The position numbers and the translations under genes are program-made. From contig JAKBBA010000029.1 of the NCBI GenBank assembly GCA_021808665.1, positions 1-43,411 of the forward strand: a stretch of 43,411 nt of DNA, given 5' to 3'. Numbering within the stretch: position 1 is the stretch's first letter; every line of letters begins with the position of its first letter. The notes under the pieces are model-generated. The model was not told the origin of the DNA. It saw only the letters and a program-made list of their open reading frames with translations, and did not search any database. Of this stretch, positions 8,389 to 43,411 are shown one piece after another. The DNA is from Actinomycetes bacterium. GTDB taxonomy: Bacteria; Actinomycetota; Acidimicrobiia; Acidimicrobiales; Palsa-688.

Positions 8389-9360
8389 TCAGCCTTTGAC
8401 GCTACCTGCGAGCAACCCGCGCACGAAATACCGCTGCAGCGAGAAGAAGACGATCATCGGAATAATGATCGTCACGAAACCACCTGCAGTTAGCAACTCG
8501 AGGTGGCTTCCGAAGGTACCCGAGAGTTGTTGGAGTTGCACGGTGAGAGGTTGAGCACTGGCGCTCTTAGCCGAGAAGGTCAAGCCGATGAGCAGGTCGT
8601 TCCAAACCCAAAGGAACTGGAAGATGGCGAAAGAAGCTATCGCCGGCAGCGAAAGCGGCATCACCACCCGGCGGTAGATGTACAAGAAGTTGGCGCCGTC
8701 AACCCGGGCTGCCTCTATCAACTCGTTGGGGAGCTGCGCAATGAAGTTGTACAGCAAGAACACCGCAAGCGGCATCGAGAACATGGTGTGGGAGATCCAC
8801 ACTTCCGCTATCGAACCGTGCAGGTTGAGGTTCGGGAAGATCGGAAACCCACCGATGTGGGCGCCGTGGCTATAGAGCTGCAGGAGCGGCACGAGCGACA
8901 TCTGCAGAGGAACGACCTGAAGACCGAAGATTATGAAGTACACCGTGTCCGCGCTCTTGAAACGCACCCAGGACAGAGAGTAGGCGGCCATCGAAGCGAC
9001 GATGATCGGGATGATCGTCGCCGGTATAGCGATTGCGAGCGAGTTCATGGCGTACGGGAACAACCCGCCGCCCTGGATATTCGCACCACCGTGGAAAAGG
9101 ACGTTTATGTAGTTGGAAAAGGTGAGAGACGGGTGCACGAACACCGTCCACCACCCGGAGCCTTCAGCCGCCGCCTTCGACCGGAGCGACGTGACGAAGA
9201 ACCCGAACACCGGGAGAGCCCAAAGGACCGACATCACGACGACGACCACAGTGGCTAGACGCTGGTGCGTCTTGGCCGGTTCCCGCTGCGGAGGAGGTGC
9301 GGTGCGCTCAGGTTCGGGGGTCTCACCTGCTTCGGTGAGCAACGCTTCATCGAGGCTCAT
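8389..9360 (-). CDS. Carbohydrate ABC transporter permease, MalG type
   Basis: A 323-residue inner-membrane permease of the CUT1 sugar-import family. A ~40-residue hydrophilic N-terminus (E/P/T-rich) precedes about six helices. The coupling motif is visible as EAARVDGANFLYIYRRVVMPLSLPA, and the protein ends in FVRGLLAGSVKG, a typical MalG/LacG C-terminus. Its ATG overlaps the stop of the MalF-type gene (ATGA at 9357-9360). With the MalF-type partner and the lipoprotein it forms an importer for an oligosaccharide, probably a sucrose-like or alpha-glucoside substrate given the divergent GH13 enzyme. No ATPase gene is in the operon; actinobacterial systems of this class usually share a general ATPase (MsiK type). 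Confidence 0.93.
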   Translation of the reverse strand: MSLDEALLTEAGETPEPERTAPPPQREPAKTHQRLATVVVVVMSVLWALPVFGFFVTSLRSKAAAEGSGWWTVFVHPSLTFSNYINVLFHGGANIQGGGLFPYAMNSLAIAIPATIIPIIVASMAAYSLSWVRFKSADTVYFIIFGLQVVPLQMSLVPLLQLYSHGAHIGGFPIFPNLNLHGSIAEVWISHTMFSMPLAVFLLYNFIAQLPNELIEAARVDGANFLYIYRRVVMPLSLPAIASFAIFQFLWVWNDLLIGLTFSAKSASAQPLTVQLQQLSGTFGSHLELLTAGGFVTIIIPMIVFFSLQRYFVRGLLAGSVKG

Positions 9361-10346
9361 GCGTAGCGCTCCTTTCGCAAGCGGAGGATACTGACCGTGA
9401 CCAGTGGAACGACGGCCATGAACAGTACGACAGCGAGGGCGCTGCCCCGACCGTTGTTGAAATCCTGAAATATCTGGCTGTACATCTCGTTCGAGAGGGT
9501 GTCCGTGTGAAAGTCACCGCCGGTAATCGTGTAGACGATGTCGAAGATCTTCAGCGTCGCAGTCATAATGGTGATGATGACGACGGTCACCGTCGACGAG
9601 ATCATCGGCAGCTGAACTGATCGGAACAGTCGCCAGCCTTTCGCCCCGTCGACCCTGGCCGCTTCTATCACATCATCAGGTATGGAGCGCAGGGCCGCCC
9701 CCAGGATCACCATTGCGAACCCCGTCTCGATCCAAACCAAGATGACCATCATTAGGAATGTGTTGAGAGGAGAACTCAGAAGCCAGTTCGGCGGGTGCGA
9801 CCACCCCAGTTTCATCGCGACTTCCGAAAGCAGTCCGATCTGAGGGAGGTTAGGCGCCCGGTACTGATATACGTACTTCCAGATAAGGCTGGCGCCCACG
9901 AAGGAGATAGCAGTCGGCATGAAGATAAGGGACTTCGCGATCACCTGGAACTTCATACGGTCGACTAAGAGCGCGAACACGAGCCCAGCAACGGTAGAAA
10001 CGAGAGGCACGATAACGAGCCACTCGGCAGTCCGCTCTAGCGTGTGCAGCGTGTGTGGGTCAGTGAAAGCCCACTTGTAGTTAGCAAAGCCGACGTACTT
10101 GACGTCCGGTCCGATCACATACTGACCGCGGAAGCTCAGGAAGATCGTCCTGATCGCTGGGATGACCAGGCCGACGAGAAGCAGGATCACTGCCGGTCCG
10201 AGCAGGAGGATGTTCGCTAGGGGCCTCTCGAAGCGACCTCGGACCTTACCAGCCAACCAGAACAAAAAGGCCAAAATGGCTACGAAACCCCCGACGGCTT
10301 CGAGCACACCCAGAAGCTTGTCGAGAGAAGTAGTCAGAAGATTCAT
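9357..10346 (-). CDS. Carbohydrate ABC transporter permease, MalF type
   Basis: A 329-residue partner permease. It contains six or more membrane helices and the coupling motif EAARVDGAKGWRLFRSVQLPMI. The frame is open 16 residues further upstream, but the ATG at 10346 has a purine-rich AAGGTGGGG sequence just ahead of it and starts the expected short N-terminus, so I use it. The first ~50 residues add an extra N-terminal helix before the core, as in MalF-like proteins. It is translated from the same message as the binding protein, separated by a 163-nt leader that holds a strong hairpin. Confidence 0.92.
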   Translation of the reverse strand: MNLLTTSLDKLLGVLEAVGGFVAILAFLFWLAGKVRGRFERPLANILLLGPAVILLLVGLVIPAIRTIFLSFRGQYVIGPDVKYVGFANYKWAFTDPHTLHTLERTAEWLVIVPLVSTVAGLVFALLVDRMKFQVIAKSLIFMPTAISFVGASLIWKYVYQYRAPNLPQIGLLSEVAMKLGWSHPPNWLLSSPLNTFLMMVILVWIETGFAMVILGAALRSIPDDVIEAARVDGAKGWRLFRSVQLPMISSTVTVVIITIMTATLKIFDIVYTITGGDFHTDTLSNEMYSQIFQDFNNGRGSALAVVLFMAVVPLVTVSILRLRKERYA

Positions 10347-10444
10347 GGGTCCCCACCTTTTCAACGCCCTTTTAGCAAACAGTAACCGACCCACTCGCCG
10401 GCAACAACTTCATTTTTACCAGTCGAAAGCTGGCACGAGCAGAC

Positions 10445-10478
10445 GTGGTGGCCAACCCCGCACGGGGTCAGCCACCAC
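10445..10478 (-). terminator. Intra-operon hairpin between binding protein and permease genes
   Basis: An imperfect hairpin of 13 base pairs: arms GTGGTGGC (10445-10452) and GCCACCAC (10471-10478), then ACCCC (10455-10459) with GGGGT (10464-10468), enclosing a four-base loop. It follows the binding-protein stop. Such a structure inside a sugar-import operon typically stabilises the 3' end of the binding-protein mRNA or causes partial termination, giving more binding protein than permease. Confidence 0.6.
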
Positions 10479-10509
10479 TAACGCTGCTCTAGGCGCTACT
10501 AGTTCAGTC

Positions 10510-11910
10510 TCAGCCGGCCGACTTGAAGGCGGCGTCGATCTGCGCTGCAGTCTGTACTTGGTCTTGGCTACCGGCGAACCATTCGGTGCTCGCCTTCCAC
10601 CAGGTGTTCTCCACTGAGGCGGGCATCGAGTCATCGGCGCTGAACCTGAAGGTCGCGTTCGGGTCCGACAGGTACTTGGCCGACAGTTGGTCGATCGGGT
10701 CCGTGTACAAGGAGGTAGGAACCTTGGTGTTGGCGGACACCCAGCCGGGAGCAACCTTTATACGGCTCTCCGCCCACTGCGGCGAGGACAGATAGTTCTG
10801 CACCATCTGAACTGCCGGAGCGCTCGAGAAGGCTGTCGTGAACTCGCCGCCTCCCATCACCGGTGTCGAAATGGCTGGGTTCACCGGGGGAAGGTAGAAA
10901 GCCATCGCCTGGTCCGTCGGAGCAGAACCTACGGTCGTACCCGTCGGCAACTGAGCCTCGTAGAAGGAGGCCTGCTGCAGCATCGCGCACTGACCCTTGA
11001 GGATCGGAAGGCCGGCATCCTGGAAAGTGGTGGTAGCGATCGACGACACACCGCCGAAACCGCCGTTCACCCAAGCCGGGTTCTGCATCCAGTTCTTGAG
11101 GATCGTCATAGCCGACTGGATCTGCGGCGAAGAGAAGGTCACCTTGCCAGCAACCCAGTTGTCGAAGACGGTGCCGCCGAAGTCACCCAGCACTATCTGC
11201 GACAACCAGTCAGCCGACGGCCAACCGGTCGCAGTGCCGGAACTGATGCCACCGCACCAAGGCTTCATCTTGCCGGAGGCCGCTATCTGCGAAGACAGCG
11301 TCATGAGCTGCTGCCAGGTTGTAGGCACTGTCCAGCCGTTCGCTGCGAACTGCTGCGGTGAGTACCAAACCATAGTCTTCATGTTGGCGCTCTCCGGCGC
11401 CGCCCAGAAGGTGCCATTGACTGTAGCGAGAGTCTTCCAGATAGACGGCCAGTTGTTCTCGTTAGCGACGGTCTGGGCGGGGGGCTTCTTAACAGCGCCG
11501 GTGTTGACCATCTCTGCGAGAAGGCCGGGCTGGGGGATGATCGCCAGATCCGGGGGGCTGCCACCTTGGACTTCCACTGGAAGCTGGGACTCGAAGCTGT
11601 TCGACCCGGTGTACTGGATGGTGATCCCGGTGCACTTCTCGAACTGCGACCACGAAGTCTCCAACGAGGTCGACTCCGGAGCAAGGATCGAACCGAAGAT
11701 CGTTACCGTGCCGGGATGCCCTGCGTACTGCGAGTAAGGAGCGCAGGCCCCGGTGAGAGTGGCACCAGACGTGGTCGCACTGGTAGCTCCTGAACCAGCG
11801 GTCGTGGCTGAACTCGACGAGCTCTTACTGCTCGAACCGCACGCCGACAGAGCCAGCGCCATCGCGGACACAGACGCGGTTACTGCTAGTGCCCTCTTCT
11901 TATGGGCCAT
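10510..11910 (-). CDS. Sugar ABC transporter substrate-binding lipoprotein
   Basis: A 466-residue extracellular solute-binding protein (family 1, MalE-like). The signal peptide ends in a lipobox L-S-A-C with lipidated Cys24, followed by a Ser/Thr/Ala-rich tether. The mature part has the two-lobed sugar-binder pattern, with VTIFGSILAPES at the N-terminal strand and many Trp residues (for example CGGISSGTATGWPSADW) suited to stacking on sugar rings. A good ribosome-binding site (purine-rich, complement of 11914-11923) precedes the ATG. It is the first transporter gene downstream of the LacI regulator and has its own promoter with an overlapping LacI-type operator. Substrate is unproven; neighbouring amylosucrase favours sucrose or a related glucoside. 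Confidence 0.93.
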   Translation of the reverse strand: MAHKKRALAVTASVSAMALALSACGSSSKSSSSSATTAGSGATSATTSGATLTGACAPYSQYAGHPGTVTIFGSILAPESTSLETSWSQFEKCTGITIQYTGSNSFESQLPVEVQGGSPPDLAIIPQPGLLAEMVNTGAVKKPPAQTVANENNWPSIWKTLATVNGTFWAAPESANMKTMVWYSPQQFAANGWTVPTTWQQLMTLSSQIAASGKMKPWCGGISSGTATGWPSADWLSQIVLGDFGGTVFDNWVAGKVTFSSPQIQSAMTILKNWMQNPAWVNGGFGGVSSIATTTFQDAGLPILKGQCAMLQQASFYEAQLPTGTTVGSAPTDQAMAFYLPPVNPAISTPVMGGGEFTTAFSSAPAVQMVQNYLSSPQWAESRIKVAPGWVSANTKVPTSLYTDPIDQLSAKYLSDPNATFRFSADDSMPASVENTWWKASTEWFAGSQDQVQTAAQIDAAFKSAG

Positions 11911-11931
11911 GTATCCCTCCCTCTATTTGGA

Positions 11932-11945
11932 TGCAAGCGTTATCA
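11932..11945. promoter_or_regulatory. Putative LacI-family operator upstream of the sugar-binding protein
   Basis: TGCAAGCGTTATCA fits the LacI/GalR-family operator pattern TGnAAnCGnTnnCA with a central CG. It overlaps the -10 box of the binding-protein promoter. A similar site lies in front of the divergent GH13 gene (13009-13022); the two share TGnAAnCGnTATC. The regulator is probably the LacI protein encoded next door. Confidence 0.6.
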
Positions 11946-11970
11946 TTACACGAGCCTGAGAGAAAAGCAA
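11943..11970 (-). promoter_or_regulatory. Putative sigma70-type promoter of the sugar-binding protein gene
   Basis: On the minus strand a -35 like box TTGCTT (complement of 11965-11970) and a -10 like box TAATGA (complement of 11943-11948) are separated by 16 nt. The -10 box touches the operator at 11932-11945, so repressor binding would block RNA polymerase. The start codon lies about 32 nt further on. Confidence 0.5.
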
Positions 11971-11978
11971 ATTTCTGA

Positions 11979-12983
11979 TTAAGTCGGCGGCCTCGACGAG
12001 GACCTCACCACCAACTTGGTCGGGATCTCCACCTCTCCTTGCTTGTGCTCTGAAGCATCGGAAATCTGGTCGAGCAGCATCTGGGCCGCCACGGCTCCGA
12101 TTCGAGCCACGGGTTGGGCCACAGTCGTCAGGTCCAGCATCCCGGCGAGGTCATGGCCGTCGAATCCGACCAGCGACACGTCGGTGCCGACAGCGAGACC
12201 GTGGAGGCGCAACGCCCGCATAGCCCCAAATGCCATCTCGTCAGACATACAGAACACGGCCGTAGGCGGATCCGGTTGTGCCAGCAAGGCGTTCATCGCT
12301 GTTTCGCCCCCGTCCACCGTGAAGTCTCCGTAGCCACACTCGAGCGCGGACGAGTCCGGAACCGGCCAGGCGACAGCCGTTTCGAATCCCCTCTTGCGCG
12401 CACGCTCCGCGAGGAACGGGCTTCGACCTTGACGCCCCGCGATCATTCCGATCCTGCGATGACCGAGGTTGACCAGATGCTGTGTGGCAAGGCGCGCTGC
12501 ACGCTCGTCGTCGATGCTGACGCTGGGAACTCCGGGCCACTTGGTGCCTATGAGAACCTTCGGGGCGTCGAGAGCGAGAAGTCCGCCTAAATCCGGGCTG
12601 TCAGGGTCGAGGGATATCACGAGAAACCCGTCAACTCGCTGAGAGAGCCGTCGCACGGGCGGTGTGCGGGCTGGGCGGCCGGGATCCCCTGCGACGAGAA
12701 GCAGAAGATCCGTCTCGGCGTCTTGGAGGACCTGCTCCACCCCGCTTAAGACCGTCGCGAAGTACCAGCGCGACAGGTATGGGGTCAGCGCTGCGACGCT
12801 GCCGGTGCGCCCACCTGCGAGACGCGACGCTGCCGGTGACACGACGTAGGAGTACCGGTCTGCGACCGCTTGGACCCTGGCTATCGTCGCCGGGTCCACG
12901 TTGTGCAAGCGGCGAAGCGCCCGGGACGCAGTAGCAGTGGACACGCCGGCCTCTCGCGCTATGTCACGGATGGTGATGGCCAT
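11979..12983 (-). CDS. LacI-family transcriptional regulator of sugar uptake
   Basis: A 334-residue repressor. Residues 1-58 are the LacI helix-turn-helix and hinge (TIRDIAREAGVSTATASRAL, then SPAASRLAGG), followed by a periplasmic-binding-protein-like sensor domain (VSIDDERAARLATQHLVNLGHRRIGMI, SDEMAFGAMRAL, VSLVGFDGHDLA). It is 68 nt upstream of the sugar-binding protein gene on the same strand and divergent from the GH13 enzyme, 64 nt apart. A GGGAGG ribosome-binding site lies at the complement of 12994-12999. The two operator-like sites flanking it suggest control of both transcripts, derepressed by the imported sugar or a derivative. Confidence 0.92.
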   Translation of the reverse strand: MAITIRDIAREAGVSTATASRALRRLHNVDPATIARVQAVADRYSYVVSPAASRLAGGRTGSVAALTPYLSRWYFATVLSGVEQVLQDAETDLLLLVAGDPGRPARTPPVRRLSQRVDGFLVISLDPDSPDLGGLLALDAPKVLIGTKWPGVPSVSIDDERAARLATQHLVNLGHRRIGMIAGRQGRSPFLAERARKRGFETAVAWPVPDSSALECGYGDFTVDGGETAMNALLAQPDPPTAVFCMSDEMAFGAMRALRLHGLAVGTDVSLVGFDGHDLAGMLDLTTVAQPVARIGAVAAQMLLDQISDASEHKQGEVEIPTKLVVRSSSRPPT

Positions 12984-13008
12984 CGGCTCTTAACCTCCCT
13001 GGTGGTCG

Positions 13009-13022
13009 TGTAAACGCTATCG
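13009..13022. promoter_or_regulatory. Putative LacI-family operator in the regulator/amylosucrase intergenic region
   Basis: TGTAAACGCTATCG lies midway between the divergent regulator and GH13 start codons and matches the site ahead of the sugar-binding protein at 9 key positions (TGnAAnCGnTATC). It could repress both the GH13 gene and the regulator itself. Confidence 0.55.
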
Positions 13023-13047
13023 TGCCGGGCGGGAGGTCCGCCTGTCC

Positions 13048-14970
13048 ATGTCAGACTGCTTAGAAGAACGCCACGAACGCTGGTTGCCAGACATACGAGA
13101 AGCTCTCGAACTCGTCTACGGCGACGTCGACCTGTTAACTCGCGTCGACGACCTCATACGGAAGGCTCATTCCAAACGCCCGGCAGAGTTGAAACGGCGG
13201 GACAGGCAGAGGCTGCTGAACCCGGACTGGTTCCAACGCGAGTCGGAGGTCGGATACGTCGCCTACGCAGACCTGTTCGGCGAAACCCTTCGCGGCGTAG
13301 CCGAACGCGTCGGCTATCTGAAAGAGCTGGGGATCACCTACCTGCACCTGATGCCGCTCCTGGAGCCGCGGCCTGAGCCCAACGACGGCGGATACGCGGT
13401 CGCAGATTACGACAAGGTGAGATCCGACCTGGGCACCATGGACGACTTGGAGCGCATGGCGACGGTGCTCCACGGGGCCGGTATCAGCCTGACACTCGAC
13501 TTGGTCTTGAACCATGTCGCCCGGGAGCACCGATGGGCCTCGTCGGCGCGACAAGGAGTGCCGAGATACCGGGACTACTTCCACATCTTCGCCGACAGAT
13601 CGATGCCGGACGAATACGAGAAGACCCTCCCAGAGGTCTTCCCGGCTACTGCACCGGGAAGCTTCACCTTCGACCAAGAACTGCGAGGGTGGGTATGGAC
13701 AACGTTCAACAACTGGCAGTGGGATCTCAACTGGGCCAACCCGGACGTGTTCATCGAATTCGCGTCGATAGTCCTTTCCCTCGCCAACAGAGGTGTCGAT
13801 TGTCTACGGCTGGACGCGATCGCCTTCATCTGGAAGCGGGTGGGCACCGACTGCCAGAACCAGCCCGAGGTGCACGCCATTACTCAGGCGCTACGAGGGA
13901 TCGCACGGATCGCCGCCCCATCGACGATCTTCAAGGCAGAGGCGATAGTGGCTCCAACTATGGTGACCACCTACTTGGGGTCAGGGGCACGGACCGGTAA
14001 AGTCTCGGACCTGGCTTACCACAACTCCCTCATGGTCCAGATTTGGTCTGCCCTGGCCGCGCGCGACGCTCGCCTAGCCGCCAAATCCCTGTCTGCCATG
14101 CGGCCCAAGCCGACCACCACTGCATGGACGACCTACCTGAGGTGCCACGACGACATCGGCTGGGCGATCGACGACCGCGACGCTGCGTCGCTCGGGTGGA
14201 GCGGGCCGGCCCACCGCGCCTTTCTAGCGGATTTCTACAGCGGGGTCTTCCCGGGAAGCTTCTCCTCGGGAGCCGACTTTCAGTCCAATCCCGGCACCGG
14301 GGACCGCAGGACGAGCGGCGCCGCCGCCAGCCTGGCGGGCTTGGAAAAGGCACTCGAAGATATGCGAGAGGCGGTCGGCGATGACCTACCAAAGGACCAC
14401 GCAGGTATGACGGTCTGGTTCGACGGCGTGAACCTGGCCGTGTCCCGCCTGCTTTGCGCCTACGCCGTCATCATCGGCTTCGGCGGTGTTCCTCTCATAT
14501 ACATGGGTGACGAGCTAGGCCTGCGCAACGATTACAGCTTCCTGGGCGATCCGGGCCGCAGGGCTGACAACCGCTGGATGCACCGTCCCCGCATGCCATG
14601 GGATCGCGCCGTGCTGCGCAACCGCGAAGGTTCGCTAGAGCACAAGGTGTACAGCGGCATGCGCAACCTGATTGCGACTCGCAAGAGGCTGGCCGGCCTG
14701 CATGCCGCCGTGGAGAGCTCCGTCTCAGCGGGGTCAGATCCAGCCGTTCTTGTGGTCGCTCGCCGGCACCCCGCGGGTGACATCGTCCAGGTTTACAACT
14801 TCTCCGAGCATCGCACCTGGGTGGCGTGGGATGAGATCGGGGTTCCGGTTCAAGACACTACCGAGGAGATATCACGCAGATCTATTGACGCCAGCGCCGG
14901 CGGGATCGAGCTGACCCCTTATGGCTCGTGGTGGATCAGCGGAATCGACGCGACGACCAGGAAACCTTAA
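13048..14970 (+). CDS. Amylosucrase-type GH13 enzyme (glucan from sucrose) or sucrose hydrolase
   Basis: A 640-residue glycoside hydrolase family 13 protein, close in length to amylosucrase from Neisseria (about 636). The family catalytic triad is visible: nucleophile Asp256 in LRLDAIAF, acid/base Glu298 in FKAEAI, and transition-state Asp368 in CHDDIGW. Amylosucrase-specific surroundings are present too: GGYAVADYDKV, the WTTFNNWQWDLNWANP stretch, FIWKRVGT, NPGTGDRRTSG and NRWMHRPRM. The expected reaction is sucrose to alpha-1,4-glucan plus fructose, or hydrolysis. There is no signal peptide, so it acts on imported sugar, consistent with the divergent importer and the LacI operator ahead of it. 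A GGGAGG ribosome-binding site (13031-13036) precedes the ATG. Trehalose synthase-like or sucrose phosphorylase activities are less likely because of the amylosucrase-type motifs. Confidence 0.85.
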   Translation: MSDCLEERHERWLPDIREALELVYGDVDLLTRVDDLIRKAHSKRPAELKRRDRQRLLNPDWFQRESEVGYVAYADLFGETLRGVAERVGYLKELGITYLHLMPLLEPRPEPNDGGYAVADYDKVRSDLGTMDDLERMATVLHGAGISLTLDLVLNHVAREHRWASSARQGVPRYRDYFHIFADRSMPDEYEKTLPEVFPATAPGSFTFDQELRGWVWTTFNNWQWDLNWANPDVFIEFASIVLSLANRGVDCLRLDAIAFIWKRVGTDCQNQPEVHAITQALRGIARIAAPSTIFKAEAIVAPTMVTTYLGSGARTGKVSDLAYHNSLMVQIWSALAARDARLAAKSLSAMRPKPTTTAWTTYLRCHDDIGWAIDDRDAASLGWSGPAHRAFLADFYSGVFPGSFSSGADFQSNPGTGDRRTSGAAASLAGLEKALEDMREAVGDDLPKDHAGMTVWFDGVNLAVSRLLCAYAVIIGFGGVPLIYMGDELGLRNDYSFLGDPGRRADNRWMHRPRMPWDRAVLRNREGSLEHKVYSGMRNLIATRKRLAGLHAAVESSVSAGSDPAVLVVARRHPAGDIVQVYNFSEHRTWVAWDEIGVPVQDTTEEISRRSIDASAGGIELTPYGSWWISGIDATTRKP

Positions 14971-16588: not shown

Positions 16589-18211
<1,623 letters not shown>

Positions 18212-18270
18212 CACTGCGCCGTTTCCAAAGTCACCAACGACCTCCCCAACCAAGCCAAAAGGAACCCGTC

Positions 18271-19575
18271 ATGACCAACTACTACGACTCTGCCGTCACC
18301 GATCTCGAAAAGCAATGGAGCACGGATCCACGGTGGGCGGGCATCGAACGCACCTACGGCGCTGCAGACGTCGTCAGGCTCCGGGGTTCTGTCCAACCCG
18401 AGCACACCTTGGCACGCAGGGGAGCCGAGCGACTGTGGGCTGAACTTCACGAGAACGACTACATCAACGCTCTCGGCGCCTTGACCGGCGGTCAGGCGGT
18501 GGAGATGGTCAAGGCTGGCTTGCACGCCATCTACCTCTCCGGGTGGCAGGTCGCCGCGGACGCAAACCTTTCCGAACAGGTCTACCCCGATCAGAGTCTC
18601 TACGCCGCCAACAGCGTCCCTGCGGTCGTCCGACGCATCAACAACGCCCTGCGCAGAGCAGACCAGATCGAATGGGCAGAGCTCGCTGGCGCAGGCCGCA
18701 CCGACGAAGCTCGGGAGTGGCTGGTTCCTATCGTCGCCGATGCCGAAGCGGGCTTCGGCGGAGCTCTTAATTCCTTCGAGCTAATGAAGGCGATGATCGA
18801 GGCCGGAGCGGCAGGCGTCCACTTCGAAGACCAACTCTCCTCTGAGAAGAAATGCGGCCACATGGGCGGGAAAGTACTGGTCCCAACCCAGCAGCACATA
18901 CGCACCCTCAATGCCGCCCGCCTAGCCGCCGACGTGTGCGGCGTCCCAACGTTGGTCGTGGCTCGCACCGACTCCTTGGGAGCAAACCTCCTCACCAGCG
19001 ACGTCGACCCAATGGACCGGGAGTTCACCACGGGCGAGCGAAGCCCGGAAGGATTCTTCTACGTTCGCCCTGGGATGGACATAGCGATCGCCAGAGGCCT
19101 CGCCTACGCCCCGTACGCCGACCTCATCTGGTGCGAGACCTCCACCCCCGACCTCGACGAGGCACGCCAGTACGCCGAGGCCATCAAAGCCCGATACCCC
19201 GACAAGATGCTCGCCTACAACTGCTCCCCCTCCTTCAACTGGAAGAAAGCTCTCGACGACGAGACCATCGCCAGGTTCCAAAAGGAGCTCGGAGCGATGG
19301 GATACACCTTCCAGTTCATAACGCTCGCCGGTTGGCACGCCCTCAACGCGGCGTCCTTCGAGCTGGCTCATGGCTATGCGGAGCGTGGCATGAGCGCCTA
19401 CGTCGAGCTGCAACAAAGAGAGTTCTCCCTCGAATCAGACGGCTACAGCGCTACCCGCCATCAACGCGAGGTCGGTGCAGGCTACTTCGACGACGTGGCG
19501 TCGACGCTCAGCGGGGGAAGCGCCTCGACCCTGGCGCTGGTCGGCTCCACCGAGGAGCAGCAGTTCGAACACTGA
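18271..19575 (+). CDS. aceA: Isocitrate lyase
   Basis: A 434-residue isocitrate lyase, the same size class as the Escherichia coli enzyme. It cleaves isocitrate to succinate and glyoxylate. The catalytic loop K-K-C-G-H is at residues 193-197, with Cys195 at the canonical position. Other family segments are present: [48 protein letters not shown] and [11 protein letters not shown]. An AAAAGGA ribosome-binding site lies about 7 nt ahead of the ATG. Co-transcription with aceB is likely. The protein lacks the long insert of the aceAa/aceAb-type mycobacterial ICL2. Confidence 0.97.
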
Positions 19576-36408: not shown

Positions 36409-37827
36409 CTAGTCGGACGGAGGGATGCCACCGCCTTTGGCCATCTCTGCGCGGGCTTCGAGCAAGTGGGCTACCGAAAGCGTGACCGACTCGGCTGTGG
36501 GAATGTGAAGGCTCTCGTCGATGCTATGGGCGTTGGATCCTGGTCCGAGCACTCCGGTGGCCACGACTTGGACCCCCGGAAAGCGCTTTCCCAGCGTGGC
36601 CAGGAAAGGTATTGTCCCGCCTTCGCTCGTCCAGCCTGCCTTGCGCCCGAACGACGCTGTCGATGCTTTGTCCAACGCCTCAAGTAGCCAAGGTGCGAGC
36701 CGAGGACACGACCAACCGGAGGCCGGAGGGTGCGCTGTTACGGTTACTTTCGCGCCGGACGGTGGGTCTTGTTTCAAGACATCGACGATTGAGGCGGTTG
36801 CCGTCACAGCATCCACAGACGGCGGCAGGCGGAACGAGAGATTGGCTGTCGTGCCAGCATGGACCACGTTCCCGCCTTCGCTCACAGAAGGCATGCCGTC
36901 GATACCGATGACCGACATCGCCGGCCTCCACGCTTGTCTCAACAGGCGCTCCGCAGGGCCGTCGCCGGCGAGCTCGACGCCTTCCAAGACGGGAAGCTGA
37001 CCTGCGACGACATCGCCAAGTTCACTAGCGAGGTCTTCGAGCCTACGAACCTGATCTGCGGGGGGTTGCGCCGAGAGCGCAGGTAGGAGCACTTCGCCTG
37101 TATAGGGATCCTCCATGCGGTTGAGAAGCTGGCGAAGCACACGAAAAGGAGAAGGCACGACGCCGGACGCCGTTCCCGAGTGAACTCCCCGCTCGAGAAC
37201 CCTTATGTCGACCGTGACCACTGCATTGCCTCGCAGCGATTGGGTCAGCCACAGCCGGTCAAAGGTTGGCGCCCCCGAGTCAAGGCAGACGAGCAGGTCC
37301 GTTCCCTCTAGTCTTTCGGTCAGCGCATCGAGGTGTGCTTCTAAATCGGGGCTAGCGCTTTCTTCGCTTCCCTCTATCAAGACGACGCAGCGGGGATGAC
37401 GCAGCCCCGCTCTTTCAACTGACTCGACGGCTAGAAGCGCAGCGAAAAGTGAGTAGCCGTCGTCTGCGGAGCCTCTTCCGTAGAGCCTCTCACTGCGAAC
37501 TATCGGGCGGAATGGGTCCAGCCCAGGACTCCAGTTCCCCAAAGGCGGCTGCTTGTCGAAGTGACCGTACAGCATCACAGTTCCGCTCGCTTCGGGATCG
37601 GTCGCGGGAATTTCGCAGACGAGCACCGGGGTGCGGCCTTCGAGGCGGTGGATGTCTACCTGGATGCCCGGAATGGGACGGTTCTTCGCCCAGTCGGCCA
37701 GGAGTTCCACGGCCCGATCAAGCTGGCCTGCGGTAGCCCACTCGGGATCGTAGGCGGGTGATAAACAGGGTATTTCCAAGTAGCGAGCCAAGACGTCTAA
37801 CGCCTCGTCGGCAAATGTGGCTTTCAT
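36409..37827 (-). CDS. M20-family metallopeptidase (dipeptidase/deacylase-like)
   Basis: A 472-residue binuclear zinc hydrolase. Metal ligands are visible in the standard order: H in VMLYGHFDKQP, D in LYGRGSADDGYS, E-E in EGSEESAS, D in LLVCLDSG, and a late H in GSNAHSIDES. A dimerisation domain lies between (RGVHSGTASG). Family members cleave dipeptides, N-acyl amino acids or related amides. The frame opens at 37929, but that overlaps the upstream gene; the Met at 37827 gives a normal N-terminus (TFADEALDVLARYLEIPCLSP). It lies 40 nt after the LarA-like gene stop and may be in its operon, though its role in sugar-acid use is unclear. Confidence 0.87.
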   Translation of the reverse strand: MKATFADEALDVLARYLEIPCLSPAYDPEWATAGQLDRAVELLADWAKNRPIPGIQVDIHRLEGRTPVLVCEIPATDPEASGTVMLYGHFDKQPPLGNWSPGLDPFRPIVRSERLYGRGSADDGYSLFAALLAVESVERAGLRHPRCVVLIEGSEESASPDLEAHLDALTERLEGTDLLVCLDSGAPTFDRLWLTQSLRGNAVVTVDIRVLERGVHSGTASGVVPSPFRVLRQLLNRMEDPYTGEVLLPALSAQPPADQVRRLEDLASELGDVVAGQLPVLEGVELAGDGPAERLLRQAWRPAMSVIGIDGMPSVSEGGNVVHAGTTANLSFRLPPSVDAVTATASIVDVLKQDPPSGAKVTVTAHPPASGWSCPRLAPWLLEALDKASTASFGRKAGWTSEGGTIPFLATLGKRFPGVQVVATGVLGPGSNAHSIDESLHIPTAESVTLSVAHLLEARAEMAKGGGIPPSD

Positions 37828-37867
37828 CGAAGTCGTAGGCGGCACCTTTTCACTGTAATCGTGGCGA

Positions 37868-39151
37868 TCAGCGATGGGTCGCCTCCCTTGAGAGCCTGTA
37901 GAGTTGCTCGCCCGCACCACGAACGACAAGAGTCCCCTCCTCGTCCGCCCATGCTGCCAGGTCGATGCCCGCAGGGTCGAGGTAGTCGAGGTTGACCGAA
38001 CGGACGACTTCCTCGGGGATACCGGTAGCGAGCGTAACGGTCACGCGTGCCCGCTCCCCATCGAGATCACTGTAAGTTCCGACTCCTCGAAGGTGGGTGG
38101 AGTGAGCAAGATCCCCCCAGTGATATCCCTTGAACCGGTCCCACTGCTTGACGTAGAAGTCGCGACAGTGATAGCCGATCTCGGTGATAGCGGGATGGGT
38201 GACCGCCAACTCCGTCACGTGCGGCGCGTAAATAACTACGTTACCGCCGTCTGCTACTACCGGCTCGACTTTGTAGAAGCCTTTGGCGCCGGTCCACATG
38301 TCGTCATACTTGCCGGGGAGAATTGCCAGCACTTTACGTACAGGGGCGTCCAAGTATCGTATGTGCGTCTGGGCCGACACGTCCGCTGCGGCCCGCCAGG
38401 CTGCAGCGGGTTCACCGAAGGCCAAGGCGCTTAGGCTGTTGGACCATGAGCTGGTCACCACGCAGAAAGCCAAACGCTCGGAAGGGACCATCGAAGCTGC
38501 CTCGTCGATGAGGGCTCGGACCGGGGTGATCCCCCGAACTCCGATTATGTCAGCGCTTGTTATCAACGCACCCAGCCAGTGGGACACGTCGATGAGCTCC
38601 TGGCCGGAGACCCCGGGAAAGAGGTACTTGTTCCCCCCGGAGAAGCCGACGACTTCGTGAGGAAAGACAGGTCCGACGATGAGAGTGACGTCATGGTCGA
38701 CTACGGCCCGGTTGACCCTCACTGGCACGTCCTGGATAACGAGGCCGTTGGACAGCTCCGCCATCCTCATTGAGCTTATAGTGCCGAGGGTCACCAGGGA
38801 ACCAGGGTCCCACCAGGCGTGATCCACCACGCGCATCCCGGGAAAGGTTTCTTCCGGCCCGCCCAGACCGTACCCAAGGTGGCGGGCGTGGGCTTGAGCC
38901 CCCATCGCTGCATGAGTACCGAGAGCTACAAGGACCGTCAGCCTAGTAACCCTCGGCTGCAGGGCAGAGTGCACGGACCTGACCAGAAGGGGTAGTGGAC
39001 AACTTCGGGTCGCGTCGGGCACCAACATACAAACGCTTAGTCCGTCGAGGGGAAGGGCCGACAGCTGTTCGCATATGAACGCTTCCACTTCGTTGTCGGC
39101 CAGGAATCGTCCAGGGCCGCCGATGGTAGCCGCCCCGTCCGGCGAGCTCAT
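37868..39151 (-). CDS. LarA-type nickel-pincer 2-hydroxyacid racemase/epimerase homologue, possible D-mannonate/D-gluconate 2-epimerase
   Basis: A 427-residue protein of the lactate racemase LarA superfamily (DUF2088). Active-site residues are preserved: D46-A-T-R49, GTH with His80, PH with His165, F-S-G-G-N-K with Lys175 (the residue that tethers the nickel-pincer cofactor in LarA), and His191. The spacing His165-Lys175-His191 equals LarA His174-Lys184-His200. A later Lys in GAKGFYK matches the second catalytic lysine. Cofactor assembly would need LarB, LarC and LarE, which are not in the window. The gene is divergent from uxaC, and the superfamily includes a known D-gluconate 2-epimerase, so epimerisation of mannonate and gluconate is proposed; lactate or malate racemase function cannot be excluded. 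The start is the ATG at 39151. Confidence 0.82.
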   Translation of the reverse strand: MSSPDGAATIGGPGRFLADNEVEAFICEQLSALPLDGLSVCMLVPDATRSCPLPLLVRSVHSALQPRVTRLTVLVALGTHAAMGAQAHARHLGYGLGGPEETFPGMRVVDHAWWDPGSLVTLGTISSMRMAELSNGLVIQDVPVRVNRAVVDHDVTLIVGPVFPHEVVGFSGGNKYLFPGVSGQELIDVSHWLGALITSADIIGVRGITPVRALIDEAASMVPSERLAFCVVTSSWSNSLSALAFGEPAAAWRAAADVSAQTHIRYLDAPVRKVLAILPGKYDDMWTGAKGFYKVEPVVADGGNVVIYAPHVTELAVTHPAITEIGYHCRDFYVKQWDRFKGYHWGDLAHSTHLRGVGTYSDLDGERARVTVTLATGIPEEVVRSVNLDYLDPAGIDLAAWADEEGTLVVRGAGEQLYRLSREATHR

Positions 39152-39205
39152 TTCGATCCTCTCGTGGTCAACGTGTCTTGCACCCCCGTGCCAGACGGCG
39201 AGTAG

Positions 39206-39234
39206 TTGCGTCGAATGGTACTTCGGATGAGTAT
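39206..39234 (+). promoter_or_regulatory. Putative leaderless promoter of uxaC
   Basis: TTGCGT (39206-39211) and GAGTAT (39229-39234) are 17 nt apart and the uxaC ATG lies 7 nt after the -10 box; no Shine-Dalgarno sequence is seen, consistent with a leaderless message. It lies in the 90-nt gap shared with the divergent LarA-like gene; I see no obvious palindromic operator there. Confidence 0.35.
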
Positions 39235-39241
39235 ATGAGCG

Positions 39242-40663
39242 ATGCCTTCCTCGTCGTCTCGGCTGGAGCTGAACCCTGATCGCCTCCTACCGGGAGATCC
39301 CCAGCAACGGCGCATAGCCCGTCGACTCTACGAGGCGGTCGAGGACCTGCCGGTGATCTCACCGCATGGCCATGTCGACCCCCGCCTCCTCGCCGGCGAC
39401 GTCGCCTTCAGGGACCCGGCGACCCTTCTACTATCCCCCGATCACTACGTTACTCGCCTCCTTCATGCAGACGGTGCGGACCTCCACGAGCTCGGGGTAG
39501 GCTGCCAATCGCTTTCCGAGTTCGAAGCCAGACGGGCGTGGAGACACCTCTGCGAGCGCTGGGAAGTCTTCGCTGGGACACCTGTGCGGTTCTGGTTCGA
39601 GGCTGAGCTGGTGGAGATATTCGGAGTCACGCTGCGACCCTCGGCACAGACAGCCGACGCCATATTCGACCAGGTAGCCGGCCGCCTCGACCAGGACGCC
39701 TACAAGCCAAGGGCGCTCTACGACCGTTTCAAGATCGAAGTGCTCACAACGACCTTCGACCCCTGCGACGACCTTTCGGCGTACGAATCGCTTCTAGACG
39801 ACCCCAGCTGGACAGGGCGGACTATCCCAGCGTTTCGCCCGGACCGCTACCTCGAACTCGACCGGCCCGACTGGCCGAAACTGGTTGACCGACTCGGGGA
39901 GACTGCCGGCTTGGACACCGGGGATTACCAAGGCTTCCTTGCGGCACTCCGGGAGCGCAGGCGCTTCTTCATCGACCATGGCGCCACGTCGGCTGACCAC
40001 AGCCACCTCGACGCGCGGACCGATCCGCTCGAACCTGCGGAAGCGGAGAGAATCTACCGGGCTGCTCTGACTGACGGCGTCAACGGAGACGAAGCGACCG
40101 CCTTCCGCAGACACATGATGATGGAAATGGCACGGATGTCGTGCGAGGACGGGCTCGTGATGACGCTTCACCCCGGGATCAGACGTAACCACCATCGGCC
40201 GACCCAGGCTGTATTCGGCCCTGATGCCGGCTGCGACATCCCGGTTAGGGTGGAGTTCACGGAGGCTCTGCGCCCGCTGCTAGAGCGTTACGGCACCTCC
40301 GCGGGCTTCCATCTGGTGGTCTTCACCGTGGACGAGACCGCCTGGTCGCGGGAACTGGCTCCCCTGGCCGGCTTCTACCCGTCGGTGTACGTAGGAGCGC
40401 CGTGGTGGTTCCTAGACGCTCCCGACGCCATCCGGCGCTTCCGGTCTGCTGTAACAGAAACAGTTGGTTTCTCCAGAACTTCCGGGTTCGTCGACGACAC
40501 CCGCGCCTTCTGCTCCATACCAGCACGCCATGACATGGCGAGACGCGTCGATGCCGGCGTGCTTGCCGGCTACGTTACGGAGCACCGACTTAGCGAGGAC
40601 GAGGCGGCGGAGATCGCCGTCGACATGGTGACGATGCAGCCCAGACGGGTGTTCAAGCTTTGA
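39242..40663 (+). CDS. uxaC: Uronate (glucuronate) isomerase
   Basis: A 473-residue member of the amidohydrolase-superfamily UxaC family that isomerises D-glucuronate to D-fructuronate and D-galacturonate to D-tagaturonate. Diagnostic sequences are the metal-binding H-x-H at 42-44 in SPHGHVDPRLL, DHGATSADHSHLDA, MTLHPGIRRNHH, GAPWWFLDAPDAIRRFR, and VDDTRAFCSIPARHDMARR. The length equals the family norm. It leads the plus-strand run uxaC, reductase, sugar kinase. It is divergent from the LarA-like gene, 90 nt apart. Confidence 0.94.
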   Translation: MPSSSSRLELNPDRLLPGDPQQRRIARRLYEAVEDLPVISPHGHVDPRLLAGDVAFRDPATLLLSPDHYVTRLLHADGADLHELGVGCQSLSEFEARRAWRHLCERWEVFAGTPVRFWFEAELVEIFGVTLRPSAQTADAIFDQVAGRLDQDAYKPRALYDRFKIEVLTTTFDPCDDLSAYESLLDDPSWTGRTIPAFRPDRYLELDRPDWPKLVDRLGETAGLDTGDYQGFLAALRERRRFFIDHGATSADHSHLDARTDPLEPAEAERIYRAALTDGVNGDEATAFRRHMMMEMARMSCEDGLVMTLHPGIRRNHHRPTQAVFGPDAGCDIPVRVEFTEALRPLLERYGTSAGFHLVVFTVDETAWSRELAPLAGFYPSVYVGAPWWFLDAPDAIRRFRSAVTETVGFSRTSGFVDDTRAFCSIPARHDMARRVDAGVLAGYVTEHRLSEDEAAEIAVDMVTMQPRRVFKL

Positions 40664-40682
40664 CAGGTTCGCAGGCCTCGAT

Positions 40683-42074
40683 GTGATTCCTCGACGGCTT
40701 TCGCGGGCTGCAGGCATGGGCCGACCTGCAGGCCCTGTACGACTTGTGCATCTCGGGTTGGGAAACTTCTTCCGATCCCACCAGGCTTGGTACACGGACA
40801 AAGCTAGCGACGCAGAAGAGTGGGGTTACGCTGCGTTTTCGGGACGCTCCACCGGGATAGCACGAATACTCGAAGACCAAGGAGGTCTCTACACGCTCGC
40901 CGTTCGATCACCCTACGAAGACCGGTTGGAGTTGGTCAACTCTATCAGCGAGGCGCACAGTGCCCGAGATCATCAAGCTTGGCTCGCCTCCCTGTCGTCA
41001 CAGCTGGTAACCGCCGTAACGATAACGATTACCGAAGCCGGCTACTGCACAAGTGGGACAGGCGGTCTCGACTTGTCTCGAGCTGACATCGCCAGTGACA
41101 TCGACCGGCTAAGGAGAGACGTGACCGAGCCGGTCATCACAGCGCCAGCGCGGCTGCTGGCCGGCTTGGCGGCTCGACACCGGGCGGACGCCGGGCCGGT
41201 CACCCTGATCCCCTGCGACAACCTAGCCAGCAACGGCGCTCTGACCTCCCGGATCCTCCAGAAGCTCACCGAAGCTGCCGACCCATCTCTTTCGCAGTGG
41301 ATAGCCGAGTCGGTGAATGTCGCCTCGACCGTAGTCGACCGTATCACCCCGAGGACAACCGTCGAGGACCTGGACGCCGTAAGCTTCAGGGCCGGGTACC
41401 GGGATGGAGCTGTCGTAGTCGCAGAACCTTTCAGCGAGTGGGTCCTCGCAGGAAGCTTCCCGTCCGGTCGGCCAAGGTGGGAGGACGCGGGCGCCCTCTT
41501 CGTCGACGATGTCACTGGCTTCGAGCACCGTAAGCTCTGGCTGCTCAACGGAGCCCATTCACTACTTGCTTACGCCGGGTCTATCAAAGGTCACCAAACC
41601 GTACCGCAAGCTATTGCAGATGACACGTGCCTGTCCTGGGTGCGCCAGTGGTGGCAAGAAGCCAAAAGCCACCTACCGCAATCCACTGTCGAACTGGACG
41701 CTTACAGCGACGCTCTGCTCGAACGCTTTGCTAACACGAAGATCGGCGACCGGCTGGAGCGGATAGCCGAGGATGGCTCACAAAAGATACCTGTCCGAGT
41801 GCTGCCGGTGCTTCGAGCCGAGCGATCCGCCGGCCGCGTGGCAACTGGGGCTACCCGAATTCTCGCAGCATGGATCTGCCATCTACGAGGACGAGGAGCA
41901 CCCATTCATGACGTCGAAGCCCCCAAAATGATCGCCTTGACCCAAGGTTCTCTGCAGCGTGCCGTTCGGAACGTCTTGTTCTTCCTCGACCCGGAGGTCA
42001 CCTCAGACACCGAAGTAGTAGCCACCATAATCGAACAGTGCACAGAGGTTTCCGGACTTGCCCGCCGACCCTGA
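40683..42074 (+). CDS. Mannitol-dehydrogenase-family oxidoreductase, fructuronate reductase-like (UxuB)
   Basis: A 463-residue NAD(P)-dependent polyol/uronate reductase. The N-terminal nucleotide-binding domain shows VHLGLGNFFRSHQAWY, and the C-terminal domain carries the family catalytic motif K-x-x-x-x-N-x-x-H as Lys284, Asn289 and His292 in KLWLLNGAHSLLAYAG. In the UxuB role it reduces D-fructuronate to D-mannonate; tagaturonate reductase or mannitol/arabinitol dehydrogenase are alternatives. The start is a GTG at 40683, 20 nt after the uxaC stop; a Met 11 codons later (40716) is possible. The gene sits between the isomerase and the gluconokinase-like kinase. Confidence 0.88.
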   Translation: MIPRRLSRAAGMGRPAGPVRLVHLGLGNFFRSHQAWYTDKASDAEEWGYAAFSGRSTGIARILEDQGGLYTLAVRSPYEDRLELVNSISEAHSARDHQAWLASLSSQLVTAVTITITEAGYCTSGTGGLDLSRADIASDIDRLRRDVTEPVITAPARLLAGLAARHRADAGPVTLIPCDNLASNGALTSRILQKLTEAADPSLSQWIAESVNVASTVVDRITPRTTVEDLDAVSFRAGYRDGAVVVAEPFSEWVLAGSFPSGRPRWEDAGALFVDDVTGFEHRKLWLLNGAHSLLAYAGSIKGHQTVPQAIADDTCLSWVRQWWQEAKSHLPQSTVELDAYSDALLERFANTKIGDRLERIAEDGSQKIPVRVLPVLRAERSAGRVATGATRILAAWICHLRGRGAPIHDVEAPKMIALTQGSLQRAVRNVLFFLDPEVTSDTEVVATIIEQCTEVSGLARRP

Positions 42075-42090
42075 AACGACCACCGGCCGA

Positions 42091-43411
42091 GTGATAATAG
42101 GTCTCGACGTAGGCACAACTGGGGCCAAGGCGGTCGCTTTTGGCCTCGACGCAAACGCAAGGTCGGTGGCCGTCAGAGAGTACCCCCTCCTGCACCCCGC
42201 TCCCGACCAGGAAGTCCAAGATCCAGCGGTAATCCTCAGCTCTACTACCAGTGCGCTCGCCGAATGCATATCACGAGTCCGGGACGCGTCCGTCGTCGGA
42301 ATCTCGCTGAGCGCCGCCATGCACGGTCTCATGGCCCTCGACCGCGACCTACACCCCATCACGCCGCTACTCACATGGGCTGACGGGCGAGCCAGAGCGG
42401 AAGCCCTGGAATTTCGCCGTGACGGCCGGGCCGGCGACCTGCAGAGCTTGACTGGTACTCCGGTCCACCCGATGACCCCTTTGAGCAAGCTGCTTTGGTT
42501 CTCGAGGAACGACCCAGAAACCTGGGCCCAGGCACGATGGTGGCTGAGCTTGAAGGACTTTGTTCTGTTCGGACTCACGGGCACTCTCGCCACCGAACTG
42601 TCATCAGCTTCGGGAACCGGGCTCGTCGACGTCAAAACTAAGACTTGGAGTCAGCTAGCCCTCCAGGCATGCGGTCTCGGCGCCGAGGCCCTGCCGGACA
42701 TAGTTCCGACGACCTTCGTCGTGCCTCTAGCGGCGGATTTCGCAAGGAAAGTCGGCCTTCCCGCTGGCACCCCTGTCGTGGCAGGCGCCGCCGACGGTCC
42801 GCTCTCCAACCTTGGCACTGGAGCTATATTCCCCGGGGTGGCCGCCCTATCACTCGGTACCAGCGGAGCGGTCCGTATTGTCTGTGACGGACCCCGCACC
42901 GACCGGTCTGGGAATACCTTCTGCTACCCACTGGTCGAACCGTTGTGGGTTGTCGGCGCCGCAATCTCCAATGGAGCCGAAGCTGTTCGGTGGGCGGGCC
43001 GAACCCTGCTACCCGAAGTCGCTGCTGGCTCGAACCTCGACGACGTCACATTAGGCCTTGCAGCTAGCGTTCCTCCCGGTAGCGATGGCCTCGTGATGCT
43101 GCCTTTCTTGCTCCCCGAGCGCGCCCCTCTCTGGAACTCCGATCTCTTCGGGGCTGTTATCGGCTTGCGCCATCATCACGGCTCCGCCCACCTAATTCGC
43201 GCATGTCTCGAAGGTGTGTGCCTGCAGATGAAGGTACTCGTGAACCGCTTGGACGCCCTCCAGCCGCTGACCAGCGTGAGAGCCACCGGCGGCGCCTTCC
43301 GCTCTCCACTGTGGCGTCAGGTGATTGCCGCTGCCGTCAACCGGCCTTTATACGTCGTCGGCGAAGTAGAGGGCGCCGCCCTCGGGGCGGCCGTCCTCGG
43401 GCTCTTTGCTC
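42091..43411 (+). CDS. gntK: FGGY-family carbohydrate kinase, gluconokinase-like (3' partial)
   Basis: The frame runs off the window; 440 residues are visible of a usual ~490-510. ATP-binding and sugar motifs are present: GLDVGTTGAKAVAF at the N-terminus, AAMHGLMALD, LLTWADGRARAE, and LSLGTSGAVR. The HPMTPLSKLLW segment and the AADGPLSNLGTGA stretch resemble FGGY gluconokinases (Bacillus GntK type) rather than xylulokinases, so D-gluconate to 6-phosphogluconate is the best prediction; xylulokinase cannot be excluded. The GTG at 42091 lies 16 nt after the reductase stop, with an in-frame TTG at 42058 as an alternative. Probable third gene of the uronate operon. Confidence 0.82.
   Translation, partial: MIIGLDVGTTGAKAVAFGLDANARSVAVREYPLLHPAPDQEVQDPAVILSSTTSALAECISRVRDASVVGISLSAAMHGLMALDRDLHPITPLLTWADGRARAEALEFRRDGRAGDLQSLTGTPVHPMTPLSKLLWFSRNDPETWAQARWWLSLKDFVLFGLTGTLATELSSASGTGLVDVKTKTWSQLALQACGLGAEALPDIVPTTFVVPLAADFARKVGLPAGTPVVAGAADGPLSNLGTGAIFPGVAALSLGTSGAVRIVCDGPRTDRSGNTFCYPLVEPLWVVGAAISNGAEAVRWAGRTLLPEVAAGSNLDDVTLGLAASVPPGSDGLVMLPFLLPERAPLWNSDLFGAVIGLRHHHGSAHLIRACLEGVCLQMKVLVNRLDALQPLTSVRATGGAFRSPLWRQVIAAAVNRPLYVVGEVEGAALGAAVLGLFA

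Follow-up and report, generated by a model that had tools for sequence, protein, structure and literature searches.

A proposed glucuronate route through a nickel-pincer 2-epimerase encoded divergently from uxaC

How might a bacterium use the D-mannonate that it forms from D-glucuronate when no mannonate dehydratase (UxuA) is encoded alongside? The question is raised by a stretch of 43,411 nucleotides from an Actinomycetes bacterium (Acidimicrobiales, Palsa-688; assembly GCA_021808665.1, contig JAKBBA010000029.1, positions 1 to 43,411, forward strand), referred to here as the window. At its right end lie genes for a uronate isomerase, a mannitol-dehydrogenase-family reductase, and an FGGY kinase, with a homologue of LarA transcribed divergently from them. 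A first-pass annotation made from the sequence had proposed that these four genes complete a route from glucuronate through fructuronate, mannonate, and gluconate to 6-phosphogluconate. Comparative genomics supports this route well, and we consider it likely to operate, with the substrate of the epimerase assigned from homology and gene context. An open reading frame (ORF) check of the window showed each of the four frames to be uninterrupted and at its stated position, as follows.

37868..39151, minus strand: larA homologue, LarA-superfamily nickel-pincer 2-epimerase (GntE type), proposed to convert D-mannonate to D-gluconate (Pfam Lar_N, residues, fold)
39152..39241, no strand: divergent region between larA and uxaC, 90 bases (from the coordinates; palindrome GGCAAnnnnTTGCC, described below, not present)
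39242..40663, plus strand: uxaC, uronate isomerase, D-glucuronate to D-fructuronate (NF002794, PDB 2q01)
40683..42074, plus strand: polyol-type long-chain dehydrogenase, proposed fructuronate reductase, D-fructuronate to D-mannonate (Mannitol_dh, Mannitol_dh_C, motifs, context)
42058..43411, plus strand, cut by the window end: FGGY kinase, proposed gluconokinase, D-gluconate to 6-phosphogluconate (TIGR01314, 3gbt)

Four proteins and the reactions proposed for them

All four proteins exceeded their Pfam cut-offs, and the gene families named by the first-pass annotation were borne out. UxaC scored above the cut-off of its NCBIfam model (NF002794; 517.8 bits; cut-off 387), and it matched the uronate isomerase 2q01 of the PDB (E 1.1e-129). 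The reductase begins 19 bases after uxaC, although its start is uncertain (40683, GTG, or 40716, ATG). It carries both mannitol dehydrogenase domains and the motifs GLGNF, NLASNG, and KLWLLNGAH at residues 25, 180, and 284, in keeping with the intact Lys/Asn/His claimed earlier. The fructuronate reductase model UxuB (NF011611) gave 202.8 bits, short of its subfamily cut-off of 603, and the protein is putatively a fructuronate reductase, a function read from context only. The start of the kinase is likewise uncertain (42058, TTG, overlapping the reductase by 17 bases, or 42091, GTG, after a 16-base gap). Its FGGY_N and FGGY_C domains were over cut-off, and its gluconokinase-like character held: the best model was the gluconokinase TIGR01314 (340.8 bits; equivalog cut-off 648.55 missed, with the truncated protein covering model positions 2 to 449 of 505), and the best PDB sequence match was gluconate kinase 3gbt (287.7 bits, versus 178.4 for a xylulokinase).

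The LarA homologue (427 amino acids) matched Pfam Lar_N with 74.7 bits (cut-off 23.3). Its best NCBIfam model was NF052594 (nickel-dependent putative hexonate epimerase, group 18; 157.4 bits; equivalog cut-off 500 missed). Since the reductase, kinase, and LarA homologue all fell below NCBIfam cut-offs, we infer their exact functions. The intact nickel-pincer residues described earlier were confirmed: the cofactor and catalytic residues D46, R49, H80, H165, K175, H191, and K290 are all kept and are conserved in 79 of 79 aligned sequences. The loop residues E166 and V167, together with W192, are also present in all 79, and the E and W recur in Thermotoga maritima GntE2 (4NAR), to which the predicted fold and loop residues of the window protein are closest. 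A loop E followed by V or S, plus the W, is the signature of LarA groups 18 to 20 (PMC7583248). Support for the family alone, with 4NAR left out, was only 0.273. A first structure prediction, made from 20 close sequences, was poor (predicted local distance difference test score 58.9) and was set aside. The closest named homologue, from an Acidimicrobiales metagenome bin, is 86% identical, and the LarA of G001, the nearest relative with a searched genome, is 72% identical. In another relative (L032, 10001-11233), the larA frame has an internal stop at codon 219, which reflects either a broken copy or a sequencing error. Taken with the gene context, the homology suggests that the window protein epimerizes D-mannonate and D-gluconate.

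Under the proposed route, UxaC would convert D-glucuronate to D-fructuronate, and the mannitol-dehydrogenase-family enzyme would reduce this to D-mannonate. The LarA homologue would then use the nickel-pincer cofactor made by LarB, LarC, and LarE: C2 of D-mannonate would be transiently oxidized, with the hydride held on the pincer and two histidines serving as acid and base, and return of the hydride to the other face of C2 would give D-gluconate. The FGGY kinase would phosphorylate D-gluconate to 6-phosphogluconate, and 6-phosphogluconate dehydrogenase (6PGD) would carry this to ribulose 5-phosphate in the pentose phosphate pathway.

Conservation of the gene set among relatives

The first-pass annotation had named co-conservation across related genomes as a check on the route, and co-conservation was found. 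Related loci were taken as the best 80 of at least 586 confirmed larA stretches from a scan of 84,980 species genomes; because the best-scoring stretches were taken, the set leans toward close relatives. Genes were counted at fixed score limits within 10 kb on each side of larA. Under these limits, uxaC was present in 44 of the 80 loci, and 42 of these 44 also carried a mannitol-type reductase or a short-chain dehydrogenase/reductase (SDR), found in 41 and 7 of the 80, respectively. Kinases of the FGGY (11/80; weaker matches in other loci are left out), GntK (11/80), and PfkB (4/80) families were detected, with gluconokinase-type or PfkB kinases together in 26 loci. The 6PGD gene gnd occurred in 10 loci and a beta-glucuronidase-like gene in 13, whereas uxuA was found in none of the 80. 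Divergent larA and uxaC less than 600 bases apart were seen in 26 loci, indicating a layout beyond chance; in 9 further loci the two genes, differently arranged, were no more than 2.5 kb apart. When one protein from each of ten clusters of locus proteins was scanned, representatives exceeded the cut-offs of models for LarE, LarB, LarC, GntK/IdnK-type gluconokinase, NADP-dependent 6PGD, beta-glucuronidase, and D-mannonate oxidoreductase (SDR); the representative PfkB protein did not reach its cut-off.

The composition of these loci varies by lineage. Nostoc loci hold gntK, lacI, uxaC, SDR, and larA, and Chloroflexota-type loci (L067 and L080) hold uxaC, SDR, larA, gnd, and pfkB. Partners on both sides of the mannonate/gluconate pair are thus kept, but one reductase or kinase family may stand in for another; this pattern favors the substrate pair more strongly than the presence of any one gene. 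The PfkB-family kinase genes lie in the larA stretches of L067 (12854-13945), L080, L038, and L015, adjoining gnd in the first two; the best model of the L067 copy was a fusion of 2-keto-3-deoxy-6-phosphogluconate (KDPG) aldolase and kinase, far below cut-off. These kinases may be gluconokinases of a new family or 2-keto-3-deoxygluconate (KDG) kinases. The G001 locus (L001) shares with the window its larA, uxaC, reductase, and kinase genes, along with an M20 peptidase close by. In the window, this is an M20-family frame (36409-37929, minus strand) that overlaps larA at its 3′ end; M20 matches were obtained in both L001 and L020. Elsewhere in the window, a separate sugar cluster (8389-14970) encodes a sugar ABC transporter, a LacI regulator, and a GH13 protein with an amylosucrase-like C-terminal domain, and malate synthase adjoins isocitrate lyase (16589-19575), forming a glyoxylate bypass.

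Genome-wide searches for UxuA and LarC covered 73 relatives with a larA of the GntE-type family, in sets of 19 and 54. The absence of uxuA, kdgK, and eda noted earlier for the window stood among its 25 Pfam-scanned proteins (a subset of its ORFs), and it extended for UxuA to the relatives: no match was obtained in 19 of 19 and 50 of 54 genomes (69 of 73), the remaining 4 of 54 having UxuA. Control genomes, including T. maritima, gave a match with the same profile. KDPG aldolase (Eda) gave no match in 10 of the 19, G001 among them. Of the cofactor genes, LarC was found in 18 of 19 and 51 of 54 genomes (69 of 73; of the four genomes without a match, two measure 1.7 and 1.5 Mb), whereas larB and larE were followed at the loci only, where larE (32/80), larB (29/80), and larC (23/80) all joined larA in 22. 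LarC was also present in 6 of 12 uxaC genomes without GntE-type LarA and is therefore not specific. A 6PGD match was returned by 20 of 20 genomes, weakly in several.

In a background sample of 296 Actinomycetota genomes, 154 matched Lar_N at E 0.001 or better, making this model too broad for co-occurrence tests. At E 1e-60, larA was sporadic, occurring in 4 of 99 genomes of G001's order, G001 included. The Corynebacterium glutamicum control genome gave no match to Lar_N, although LarC and UxaC matched and GntE1 was described from this species.

A candidate regulatory element accompanies some of these loci. Of the 27 divergent larA/uxaC regions (those of the 26 loci and the window), 15 contain the palindrome GGCAAnnnnTTGCC with at most one mismatch, compared to 0.055 expected from single-base shuffling. 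The full set of 80 loci contains 114 such sites, and 55 of these precede a listed gene match by no more than 450 bases: larA (26), uxaC (22), beta-glucuronidase-like (8), lacI (7), larE (6), reductase (6), dctP (3), gnd (2), gntK (1), and pfkB (1), where one site can serve two genes. Carriers upstream of larA or uxaC include L004, L012, L016, L017, L018, L028, and L031, and the palindrome also stands upstream of some tripartite ATP-independent periplasmic (TRAP) transporter genes. It is absent from the divergent regions of L001, L003, L006, L010, and seven others. Many larA loci contain LacI-type genes, and we take the palindrome to resemble a LacI-family operator. It is thus a candidate mark of a LacI-family uronate regulon in some relatives.

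Weighing the readings of the locus

A number of observations weigh against the epimerase route. The top model of the reductase was D-arabinitol 4-dehydrogenase (250.9 bits; cut-off 600 missed) and its best PDB sequence match a mannitol dehydrogenase, and both it and the kinase are below NCBIfam cut-offs. The palindrome is not in the window. Of the 80 loci, 36 lack uxaC in the stretch (contig ends truncate some of these), suggesting that the epimerase is not always tied to uronates. Eight Kribbella loci (L014, L026, L029, L033, L034, L037, L042, and L043) have larA without uxaC in a conserved neighborhood, near a gene that we labeled FAD-oxidoreductase-like from reading its sequence. The epimerase might likewise handle gluconate or mannonate of other origin. 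A model that we take to represent the enolase-type mannonate dehydratase ManD (NF011654) gave some match in 15 of the 19 larA genomes and exceeded its cut-off in 5, and the 6PGD match of G001 is weak (37 bits). Moreover, UxuA is rare in Actinomycetota as a whole (10 of 296 genomes match, 9 over cut-off). That sample contains 19 uxaC genomes, 17 of them without GntE-type LarA (G155 and G231 of these have a distant LarA); UxuA is present in 3 of the 17 and missing from 14. The absence of UxuA is therefore weak evidence by itself, and we rejected selective loss of UxuA among larA genomes as a statistical argument. Genomes with uxaC and neither UxuA nor GntE-type LarA include G027, G214, G223, G224, G244, G246, G267, G276, and G288. 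Finally, the Km of GntE1 for D-mannonate is 120 mM (PMC7583248), and the actinobacterial branch may therefore have a different true substrate.

With its score below the gluconokinase cut-off, the window kinase could also act first, phosphorylating mannonate to 6-phosphomannonate, which the LarA homologue would epimerize to 6-phosphogluconate. Mannonate kinase and 6-phosphomannonate 2-epimerase activities of this kind have been reported in Lactobacillus suebicus extracts (PMC6978723). However, these activities have no assigned genes, GntE1 and GntE2 act on free D-mannonate, and among the 11 loci with a GntK-type gluconokinase, the L073 copy scores above the cut-off of TIGR01313 and the L047 frame overlaps larA. 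We regard this order as unlikely. About equally doubtful is a role of the LarA homologue on another sugar acid of uronate metabolism, such as an aldarate. The Km of GntE1 and the suggestion of glucarate/mannarate by its discoverers (PMC7583248) favor this role, as do two Corynebacterium family members that align full length to the window LarA at 47 and 49% identity; in contrast, the neighboring uxaC, reductase, gluconokinase, and gnd genes encode steps on both sides of mannonate/gluconate.

The same enzymes might instead form a galacturonate cluster, in which UxaC, which acts on both uronates (PMC6353982), would yield tagaturonate, the reductase altronate, and the LarA homologue allonate. The tagaturonate reductase model does match the window reductase, but its 143 bits fall below the 203 bits of the fructuronate reductase model, and the one beta-glucuronidase-like protein scanned from the 13 loci reached 897.8 bits (cut-off 544). 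We know of no exit for allonate in such a cluster, and this reading is very improbable. Least credible is a classical isomerase pathway with uxuA, kdgK, and eda elsewhere in the genome and larA as an unrelated neighbor: the absence searches do cover the window and relatives rather than the remainder of the window organism's genome, but larA and uxaC are divergent in 26 loci, and G001 (72% identical in LarA; genome of unstated completeness) had no match for UxuA, Eda, or NF011654.

We conclude that the four genes probably constitute a glucuronate catabolic route that avoids mannonate dehydratase, with every reaction in the window organism deduced. What the analysis shows directly is the genes, their residues, the predicted fold, co-conservation, and the absence of UxuA from most relatives; epimerization has been assayed for homologues elsewhere.

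Implications and comparison with known systems

A gluconate 2-epimerase and a gluconate kinase were proposed as the link from mannonate to 6-phosphogluconate in T. maritima (Rodionova 2012, via PMC6978723 and PMC7583248), so a route of this kind is known, a precedent that the first-pass annotation did not mention. The same work noted gntE homologues in Lactobacillus, Acidobacterium, and Terriglobus (via PMC6978723), and the acidobacterial locus L063 is therefore no new lineage. GntE1 and GntE2 were later assayed, GntE2 epimerizing D-mannonate to D-gluconate in vitro and the role of GntE1 being left open with aldarates suggested (Desguin 2020, PMC7583248); a further paper added a GntE from an oomycete (PMC11770544). 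A literature search, with most subscription journals outside its coverage, found no title or abstract opening on a GntE route in Actinomycetota. The apparent novelty is that Actinomycetota, Nostoc, and Chloroflexota would run the route without UxuA, that its reductases and kinases are exchangeable, and that some relatives have a putative LacI-type operator in common.

We lean, by a modest degree, toward a broader reading: in many Actinomycetota and some Nostoc-type cyanobacteria and Chloroflexota, a GntE epimerase would be the main or only exit from mannonate, and growth on glucuronate would depend on nickel and LarBCE and run through the pentose phosphate pathway rather than the KDG tail. Uronate catabolism that needs no mannonate dehydratase would then be the physiological role left unassigned for the Corynebacterium GntE1 group, and the gene sets allow a direct test of it. 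Were this so, glucuronate use in these bacteria would be controlled by the supply of nickel, annotation requiring UxuA would wrongly score them as non-users of glucuronate, and metabolic engineering could draw on a redox-neutral route from uronate to ribulose 5-phosphate.

The nearest known system is that of T. maritima GntE2 (LarAH20), which lies with GntK and Gnd in the UxaR regulon and has the same proposed step from mannonate through gluconate to 6-phosphogluconate. GntE2 is also the closest solved fold to the window LarA, with the same catalytic and E/W signature residues. The two proteins are, however, only ∼30% identical, with S156, G286, and N348 of GntE2 corresponding to V167, A289, and H353 in the window, where larA is directly divergent from uxaC. 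T. maritima also carries a kdgA-kdgK-uxuB-uxuA operon, whereas most larA genomes studied here have no UxuA. C. glutamicum GntE1 (LarAH19) is, like the window protein, an actinobacterial LarA homologue; it is a mannonate epimerase in vitro with a uronic-acid gene context. Its membership in the same group is suggested by the Corynebacterium relatives rather than by comparison with GntE1 itself, and its discoverers did not place it in a mannonate-gluconate route. The L. suebicus pathway similarly joins the upper isomerase pathway to 6-phosphogluconate and is redox-neutral to ribulose 5-phosphate (PMC6978723), but its kinase precedes its epimerase, the reverse of the order proposed for the window. 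With the classical UxaC-UxuB-UxuA-KdgK-Eda pathway, the proposed route would have its first two steps in common, while mannonate dehydratase and the KDG tail would be replaced.

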